NCBI GenBank assembly: GCA_003213555.1
Contig: QCMS01000002.1
Span: 1-64,000, forward strand
Length of the DNA stretch: 64,000 bases
Reading direction: 5' to 3'
From: Pelagibacteraceae bacterium AG-422-I02
GTDB taxonomy: Bacteria; Pseudomonadota; Alphaproteobacteria; Pelagibacterales; Pelagibacteraceae
The translations under genes were made by a program, and so were the position numbers. Under the pieces are notes generated by a model, which saw only the letters and a list, made by a program, of their open reading frames with translations, searched no databases and was not told the DNA's origin. This document shows positions 35,630 to 40,418 of this stretch, one piece after another. How positions within the stretch are numbered: the first letter of the stretch is position 1; every line of letters begins with the position of its first letter.

Positions 35630-35789
35630 TTTTTGCTCCTTTTTTTTATAATTACTTAATTAAATTATAAATGTTTTAATGAAAAAATTATCCACACTTT
35701 TTAGTTGTGTAGTTACAAATGTTCACGTTTTGATTCACTTTTGATTCCTAATCAGACTCAAAATACAACTTTAAAGAGTGTTATCCACA
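35630..35789. promoter_or_regulatory. AT-rich intergenic region with two DnaA-box consensus sequences
   Basis: The 141-base gap and adjoining gene end hold two copies of TTATCCACA, at 35688-35696 and 35781-35789; the second lies inside the end of the MFS gene. A 45-base stretch of almost pure A/T precedes the first. The promoter of the apr operon must be in the gap. The boxes match the bacterial DnaA consensus, but two boxes alone do not define an origin. Confidence 0.4.
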
Positions 35790-38350: not shown

Positions 38351-39052
38351 ATGAATGAAATAACTCAAATAAGAAAATTGAGTTTATGGATATTTTTTAT
38401 TCCATTAATAGCAATAAATTTATGCTTATTTATTTCCCAAAATTATAGCATTCTTGAAGGTACCTTTTTATCAGTAGATCAACTTGGAAGATCTAAATTT
38501 TCAATACCTTATTTAGACGGTAGTTTATCTATCAGTCGGGCATCCAGAACTTTTCCTCAATATCTAATTTTTAAACCCGCAATGTTTATTACTGCATTTG
38601 CTTTATACTTATATTGGGTGAATAATAATAATTTAATTAATAAATTTTATTCCACAAATCTTAATTATAAATTTAAAATTTTTGGGATTTTATCAGCTGT
38701 ATTTTTAGTAATTCATTCAATTTTTTTAGGTATAAAATTTGATATTCAAATTTATAAATTAATGAGAAGAGTAGTTTTGCTGTTATTCATTATATTTGAA
38801 CTTATAGCGCAAGGGATTCTTGTTTATCATTTTTTTAAAATTAAAAAAAAAATATCAAATTTTATTAATAAAAAATTTTTATTTTTAAAAGCCTTTTTAG
38901 TTTCAATATTAACAATAGTAGCTGTTTTGAGTTTGCCCATACTTTTAAACAAAGGTAATACACACTTTAAGCATGCATTAGAATGGAACTATTTTGTGGG
39001 TGTTATTACTTTTTATTTATTTACAAGATTTTTCTGGAGAAGAACCACATAA
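38351..39052 (+). CDS. Multi-pass membrane protein, unknown function
   Basis: 233 residues with about six hydrophobic helices: one near the N-terminus (SLWIFFIPLIAINLCLFI), a 45-residue outer loop with SVDQLGRSK and SISRASRTFPQ, and five more. The layout loosely resembles Frag1/DRAM/DUF998-type proteins, but no motif is decisive. It follows the tiny basic protein gene and ends on the edge of the structured RNA region. Confidence 0.7.
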   Translation: MNEITQIRKLSLWIFFIPLIAINLCLFISQNYSILEGTFLSVDQLGRSKFSIPYLDGSLSISRASRTFPQYLIFKPAMFITAFALYLYWVNNNNLINKFYSTNLNYKFKIFGILSAVFLVIHSIFLGIKFDIQIYKLMRRVVLLLFIIFELIAQGILVYHFFKIKKKISNFINKKFLFLKAFLVSILTIVAVLSLPILLNKGNTHFKHALEWNYFVGVITFYLFTRFFWRRTT

Positions 39053-39221
39053 ATTTCTAGGCTTTCGCCCAGAAATTTAGTAGTTTTGGCTCGTCGTTTT
39101 AGGCGCTACCGCCAAGCCATCCCGATGAACTATTCTAGCGCTACTAGGTCCATCTTTCTGCCCTTTAAGCTTGAACCTCTCGGTTTTTCCTTAAATGGCC
39201 AGTTAAGAGTTGCCTCTTAAT
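39050..39221 (-). ncRNA. Candidate structured non-coding RNA, family not recognised
   Basis: A 226-base gap holds no plausible gene but five good hairpins in about 170 bases. They are 39051-39078 (8-bp outer stem, GGC/GCC inner stem), 39087-39119 (TGGCT/AGCCA with inner GGCG/CGCC), 39124-39154 (7-bp stem with one G-U, inner CTAG/CTAG), 39164-39195 (TTTAAG/CTTAAA with inner AACC/GGTT) and 39203-39220 (7 bp). Read on the minus strand, three loops are GNRA tetraloops (GAAA, GAGA, GCAA); on the plus strand they are not, so transcription from the minus strand is favoured. It lies downstream of mnmA. GC content is visibly higher than in neighbouring spacers. I could not match tmRNA, RNase P, SRP or 6S RNA signatures. 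Confidence 0.65.
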
Positions 39222-39278
39222 TACTCTCATTAAATCATGTTAAAAAAAAAATTGTTATCACTTTTAACGAGATAATTA

Positions 39279-40418
39279 TTAAGATGTTAACTTTGTGGAT
39301 AAATTTTTGTTGAATGTCTTATAAATCCATCCCCCACCTAATACCTTATCCCCAACATTATCTTTAGAATAAAATACACAGGCTTGCCCTGGAGAAATTC
39401 CAGTTTCCTTATCTAAAATTTCTACGTCAGCTAAGGTTTTTGAAATATTAATTTTAGCTTTTAAAAGTCTACCTGTAGATCTCACCTTTATATTTATTGG
39501 TTTTGTAAATTCATCTTTAGATCCAAGGATATTTAAATCTTTTAAAGAAATTTTCTGTACTTCAAGACACTCTTTGTTTCCAACTGTAATGGTATTATTT
39601 GTTGCATCTATATTGATAACATATAAAGGTTTATTACTTGCTATTTTGATTCCCTTTCTTTGTCCTATTGTATAATTAATAATACCTTCGTGCTCACCTA
39701 GTTGGTTTCCTTCAATATCAAGAATTTTACCTGACTTAAAAGACTCTGGTCTAAATTTTTTTATTACTGCTGCGTAATCTCCATTAGGAACAAAACAAAT
39801 ATCTTGGCTATCAGGTTTTGTTGCAACATTTAAATTCAATTTTTCGGCAATAGCTCTCGTTTCTGACTTATCTATCTCTCCTAAAGGAAATCTTAGATAA
39901 TCTAATTGCTCTTGAGTTGTGCTAAATAAGAAATAACTTTGATCTCTATTTTGATCCTTGGCCCTATACATATTTGCATGCTCGTTAGTTTGAACTCTAG
40001 AAACATAATGGCCAGTAATTAATGCATCAGCTTTTAATTCTTTAGCATATTTATATAAATCTCTAAATTTAACTGTTTGATTACATTGAACACATGGTAT
40101 TGGTGTTTCACCTACAGCATAACTATCAATAAAAGTGTCAATGACTTCGGTTCTAAACTTTTTTTGATAAAATAAAATTTTATGATCGATATTTATATTT
40201 TCTGAAACTCTTTTTGCATCTAAAATATCTTGCCCCGCACAACATTGTCTTCCTTCTTTTGATTGCTTGGTATCATCATATAATTTAAGCGTTATGCCAG
40301 TGACATCATATCCTTCCTGCTTCATCAGCGCCGCCACAACTGATGAGTCCACTCCACCAGACATAGCAACAACTACCTTGGTCTCTTTTTTGGGTTTATT
40401 AATTCCTAGTGAATTCAT
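39279..40418 (-). CDS. mnmA: tRNA-specific 2-thiouridylase
   Basis: 379 residues, full length. The PP-loop SGGVDSSV (ATP pyrophosphatase) lies near residue 20. The catalytic cysteine pair appears as IPCVQCN near residue 106 and in DSQDICFVP near residue 205, and the tRNA-binding C-terminal domain ends in SPGQACVFY. It thiolates U34 of Lys, Glu and Gln tRNAs. It is divergent from the DUF3553 gene. A weak hairpin followed by ten T on the minus strand at about 39241-39270 may terminate it. Confidence 0.95.

Follow-up and report, generated by a model that had tools for sequence, protein, structure and literature searches.

The noncoding gap at positions 39053-39278 of the window (the whole 64,000-nucleotide stretch of Pelagibacteraceae bacterium AG-422-I02 DNA that was analyzed) very probably holds a gene for a stand-alone structured RNA, and comparison with Rfam established the predicted minus-strand RNA as a copy of IMES-2 (RF02035), a catalogued family of ocean bacteria. 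The 142-nt RNA core at 39086-39227 (minus strand) matched RF02035 at 152.7 bits (E = 6.1e-40; cmscan), where the family's gathering score is 54.7, and the match spanned the full model (1-141 of 141), as expected of a member of the family. Runner-up families in a permissive scan of 38951-39350 reached at most 16.5 bits. An earlier note on this DNA had described the RNA as unassigned; the full-length match refutes this description, an Rfam match being one of the outcomes that the note itself had named as refuting it. The exclusion of tmRNA, RNase P, SRP, and 6S RNA in the same note stands, since Rfam scans matched none of these at 39086-39227, and its gap size of 226 bases was recovered. The gap lies between a plus-strand open reading frame (ORF) at 38351-39052, which matched no Pfam family, and a minus-strand ORF at 39279-40418 with the Pfam domains tRNA_Me_trans, tRNA_Me_trans_M, and tRNA_Me_trans_C, whose product we read from these domains as a putative MnmA. 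The window's genome, at 67.7% completeness, yielded no second IMES-2 copy. With a probability of about 0.6, our whole reading is that IMES-2 is a stand-alone, trans-acting RNA that probably binds a protein and has its own upstream control.

SAR11 bacteria are among the most abundant cell groups in the ocean and have few regulators. In 2009, Weinberg et al. reportedly found IMES-2 to be abundant in RNA from marine samples, yet to our knowledge the family has a name and no known function. A full-text literature search for IMES-2 or RF02035, with the original 2009 description outside its scope, found the name only in the giant squid genome paper (PMC6962438), which in the passages covered counts IMES-2 with hits regarded as probable contamination from the environment. 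The passages covered of Meyer et al. 2009 (PMC2704228) do not name IMES-2.

Folding analysis of 39050-39240 gave -64.8 kcal/mol for the minus strand (z = -6.11) and -49.1 kcal/mol for the plus strand (z = -3.41), with 0 of 200 shuffles as good on either strand. The five stable minus-strand hairpins described previously were found as P1 to P4 inside the RNA and a 3' hairpin with its core at 39050-39079. P1 (39203-39220, minus strand) has 7 pairs, and P2 (39158-39202, minus strand) has 15 pairs in two helices, with one bulged base in the stem and a purine-rich 4x4 internal loop. P3 (39124-39154) and P4 (39088-39118), both on the minus strand, each carry in the loop one side of a proposed kissing contact. 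The three minus-strand GNRA loops claimed in the earlier note are likewise present, as GCAA in P1, GAGA in P2, and GAAA in the 3' hairpin. Among the 81 copies that we collected (68 distinct), the P1 loop position is GCAA in 79 and the P2 loop position is GAGA in 78 and GCGA in 1; genus g2, with two distant copies, retains the P1 GCAA at a one-base shift and lacks the P2 GNRA loop.

Covariation bore out the idea of a folded minus-strand RNA, and a second outcome that the earlier note had named as refuting, an absence of compensatory changes, did not arise. For 33 representatives without genus g2, 96.5% of cells were paired and 25 of 43 pairs had double changes. A second alignment of 27 sequences including the two g2 copies, which was fitted to the nested structure and is thus biased in its favor, had 96.4% of cells paired and double changes in 31 of 43 pairs; both 43-pair counts include the proposed contact between loops 3 and 4. 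By hairpin, the 33 sequences had double changes in 3 pairs of P1 (100% of cells paired), 9 pairs of P2, and all 8 pairs of P3, and 3 of the 8 pairs counted in P4 were doubly changed, with 99.6% of cells paired. None of 500 shuffles reached the covariation counts of either alignment, and sliding the partner columns by 1 to 3 lowered pairing to 33-41%; the structure exceeds what is expected by chance. These compensatory changes uphold the four-hairpin IMES-2 consensus fold, further placing the window RNA in the family, and demonstrate at the level of sequence comparison the predicted nested fold of P1 to P4.

Loops 3 and 4 are complementary over five bases, with GCGCU at 39137-39141 facing AGCGC at 39103-39107 (both minus strand), making probable a tertiary contact of the kind anticipated for a folded RNA. 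Taken alone, this five-pair helix had 96.3% of cells paired and two pairs doubly changed in the 27 sequences; 35 of 500 shuffles reached two doubly changed pairs, and none reached the cell pairing or the score. Across the 81 copies, the loop 3/loop 4 combination was GCGCU/AGCGC in 59, UCGCU/AGCGC in 17, GCACU/AGUGC in 3, GUACU/AGUAC in 1, and GCGCU/AGCGA in 1. Pairing is complete in GCGCU/AGCGC, GCACU/AGUGC, and GUACU/AGUAC and hence survives double changes, and the first pair of the contact is lost in 18 of the 81 copies. By corrected mutual information, column pair 96-130 ranked 25th overall; when only non-nested pairs showing two Watson-Crick types and pairing of 95% or more were considered, it came second, behind pair 58-94, whose signal seems to reflect lineage. 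Loop 4 can alternatively form an inner stem of three pairs, which competes with the contact and had 93.8% of cells paired. We consider the proposed kissing contact likely but not proven, and it could be either intramolecular or a link between two molecules. The loops are nearly self-complementary.

Downstream of P4, the 3' hairpin at 39043-39085 (minus strand) is a probable intrinsic terminator that overlaps the end of the convergent ORF, with the terminator-like site at 39079-39050. All four carrier genera have a counterpart (-17.8 to -25.0 kcal/mol over 50 nt), the sequence of this GAAA-loop hairpin varies between genera, and the window's genus has a weak T-rich tail (median of 3 T in 10). 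Transcription would run from about 39227 to about 39043 to yield an RNA of roughly 185 nt that ends with this hairpin.

We found IMES-2 as a single-copy gene in 81 of 197 genomes of the order, distributed over four of ten genera (15 of the 18 listed genomes of the window's genus, 62 in g3, 2 in g2, and 2 in g6). Three of 385 genomes in a sample of the class matched, all from the window's family, and a pattern scan of genome contigs gave at least 120 stretches, of which the 80 listed were all titled Pelagibacteraceae, Pelagibacterales, or Pelagibacter. Searching the 197 genomes with model R1 recovered 79 and missed the two g2 carriers. For divergent copies, model R2 was convincing only in these two g2 carriers among 22 genomes, with weak matches in 9 others (best, 17 bits). 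An 82-base, 17-bit R2 match at L246 of G092, a genome without IMES-2, is probably due to chance. At 38 loci with ogt-like or mnmA-like genes in 22 genomes, model R1 was convincing only in one carrier, G015, and 14 of these loci had no Rfam match at gathering. Because single-contig genomes of the same family (e.g., G003) lack IMES-2, the RNA is not essential to SAR11. The three genomes of the window's genus without IMES-2 also lack an mnmA match, which may reflect assembly gaps or joint loss. IMES-1 exceeded the cut-off in none of the 197 genomes of the order, with one sub-cut-off match at 27.4 bits.

IMES-2 occupies three unrelated genomic sites, each time together with its upstream element and 3' hairpin. 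It neighbors an mnmA-like gene in g1 and g6 and nuclease and SRAP genes in g2, and in g3 it lies between an integrase-like gene and an ogt-like gene. At L101, L103, and L104, the integrase-like and ogt-like genes are present and a block of nearly 300 bases containing the upstream element, the RNA, and the 3' hairpin is missing; the integrase-like, ogt-like, and EamA proteins at these loci are 90-99% identical to those of carriers, not all of them to one carrier. Gain or loss of the three parts as one block is well supported but not proven, and the three neighborhoods together with the absence of the whole block argue for a self-contained gene acting in trans. A neighbor-gene tree, unrooted and based partly on the integrase-like gene, hints at a mixture of carriers and noncarriers.

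Two other ideas about IMES-2 were rejected. The change of neighborhood between genera spoke against cis-regulation of mnmA. A location at the replication origin was dropped because, in 400-kb samples from each of two complete genomes, the RNA has no constant place: in G015 cumulative GC skew is highest near IMES-2, and in G001 the RNA is approximately 170 kb past the lowest block. As separate observations, a phage-integrase-family gene is close to the IMES-2 site at L060:1705-2655 (minus strand) and in its g3 counterparts, and the g3 integrase genes are followed by genome-specific genes in what looks like the edge of a variable island. Loci L087, L088, L093, L094, L098, and L099, which are without IMES-2, contain a related ORF of about 145 codons at the spot between the integrase and ogt genes.

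Upstream of the RNA, we observed the -35-like element AGTGATA at 39256-39262 (minus strand), noted for its position relative to the RNA across copies. By a pattern devised after inspection, all 81 copies have AGTGATA or a variant 34-37 bases ahead of the RNA, and none of 26 sampled tRNA genes carries it in the 60 bases upstream. A tandem of two 9-mers resembling DnaA boxes follows farther upstream at 39285-39302 (minus strand), inside the last codons of the mnmA-like gene, with counterparts upstream of copies in all four carrier genera. The best match to the tandem was at least 13 of 17 in 80 of 81 copies; among controls, 0.6% of upstream stretches after shuffling and 0.34% of 95-mers drawn at random from the genomes did as well. 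The motif had been spotted first and then scored with a seed from the motif itself and the DnaA consensus. Since the copies are related, the counts for both upstream motifs are not independent, and part of the conservation of the g1 tandem may stem from coding constraint, as the site occupies the final stretch of the mnmA-like gene. The gap between the tandem and AGTGATA is either 22-24 bases (27 copies) or 30-34 bases (54 copies), with none between. These spacing classes, which both occur within g3, are about one helical turn apart, suggesting a bound protein that is obliged to face the promoter. We regard a dedicated upstream element of IMES-2 as well supported, although short of proof.

The DnaA box consensus is TTWTNCACA. 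A 9-mer with no more than one mismatch to this consensus was present in 76 of 81 copies, a count that is partly circular because a DnaA-like seed chose the sites. A regulon sharing the tandem element was considered and dropped. At a 10th-percentile threshold, a search of the window and of 400 kb from each of G001 and G015 gave no tandem outside IMES-2, but the sites themselves were in the training set. With each lineage left out in turn, the true site still ranked high in G001, where 2 of 799,320 positions scored better, and less high in the window (7 of 127,966) and in G015 (132 of 799,320). A fixed consensus with two mismatches was no more common than its reversed control (17 matches in 20 genomes, 4 of them at IMES-2, versus 21). 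In the whole window, TTATCCACA occurs three times only, at 39294 (minus strand) and as a plus-strand pair at 35688-35696 and 35781-35789. The members of this pair are 93 bases apart, with one in the gap at 35630-35770 and the other at the end of the neighboring ORF.

We propose that IMES-2 would act in trans, since its neighbors differ between genera, and that this compact structured RNA may act mainly by binding a protein. Protein binding is suggested because the conserved bases are mostly stems, GNRA loops, the internal loop, and kissing loops instead of a free antisense stretch, and because Hfq was undetected. Hfq, whose presence in the genome would mark a possible Hfq-dependent sRNA, was found in 0 of 22 genomes of the window's family, including the window's own (67.7% complete), with 5 of 14 controls positive. 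In the passages covered of Meyer et al. 2009 (PMC2704228), tmRNA, SRP RNA, and RNase P RNA are reported for 'Cand. P. ubique'; with these roles filled in this relative and 6S RNA and Hfq unmatched, a protein-binding, trans-acting RNA is favored. The main rival, which we consider possible but clearly less probable, is that IMES-2 is a trans-acting antisense RNA whose loops pair with messenger RNAs. A stand-alone RNA with a terminator-like hairpin, conserved loops, and no constant neighbor would suit such a role, but the bases of loops 3 and 4 covary with each other, a pattern easier to reconcile with contacts inside one RNA or between two IMES-2 molecules than with a messenger target that stays fixed, and the lack of detectable Hfq in the 22 genomes also weighs against it. 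We think it unlikely that IMES-2 replaces 6S RNA by binding RNA polymerase in bacteria without a recognizable 6S. In its favor, the 6S model matched 0 of 197 genomes of the order and was positive in 5 of 14 controls, Caulobacter among them, although the stricter filters used could miss a diverged 6S. The 6S RNA fold is one long hairpin with a central bubble, whereas IMES-2 forms four hairpins in a row, and genomes without IMES-2 also lack a 6S match.

Two further alternatives appear highly improbable. One is a cis role for the hairpins, in which they would serve mnmA or the convergent gene as terminator or leader, as the overlap of the terminator-like 3' hairpin with the end of the convergent ORF might suggest, but the same RNA occurs in three unrelated neighborhoods, and the window copy, downstream of mnmA, is oriented toward the end of the other gene. 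Similarly, the patchy presence of IMES-2 and the nearby integrase-like gene in g3 could point to a passenger of a mobile element or phage. That integrase-like gene is also found in genomes without IMES-2, however, and IMES-2 was found neither in viral contigs searched with one exact pattern nor in phages and plasmids searched with the window copy as the only query.

In our preferred reading of a protein-binding RNA with its own control, IMES-2 output would probably be set by a factor bound some 65-75 bases upstream, at the tandem. DnaA would be the first candidate for this factor, although the box spacing misfits the E. coli rule. A bolder version, which we find rather doubtful, is that IMES-2 is a portable regulatory cassette in which a structured RNA answers to DnaA, the replication initiator, or else to some factor not yet described whose site is peculiar to this promoter. 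Such a cassette would provide an RNA-based link between chromosome replication and growth in SAR11 without Hfq or a recognizable 6S RNA. The protein in control of IMES-2 might be traced through the conserved upstream element, and the patchy distribution of IMES-2 provides natural carriers and noncarriers at one locus for comparison.

Relative to known systems, the IMES-2 upstream region resembles E. coli targets with paired DnaA boxes, as described in the passages covered of PMC11317965, in having two same-direction 9-mers near TTATCCACA upstream of a promoter-like site. E. coli DnaA favors box pairs 2 or 3 bp apart according to the same passages (PMC11317965), whereas the candidate IMES-2 boxes are separated by 0 bp. 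IMES-2 is similar to 6S RNA (RF00013) as a stand-alone small RNA of similar size but differs in fold and lacks a model match, with no 6S RNA found in the window at gathering or in the permissive scan of 38951-39350. With the IMES-2 family itself, the window RNA shares a full-length match and the same four hairpins; the cmscan structure line for RF02035 is without the loop 3-loop 4 contact proposed here, although this line may omit pseudoknots. To the family as catalogued, our analysis adds a likely loop-loop contact, a self-contained block with an upstream element, and a natural presence/absence system.
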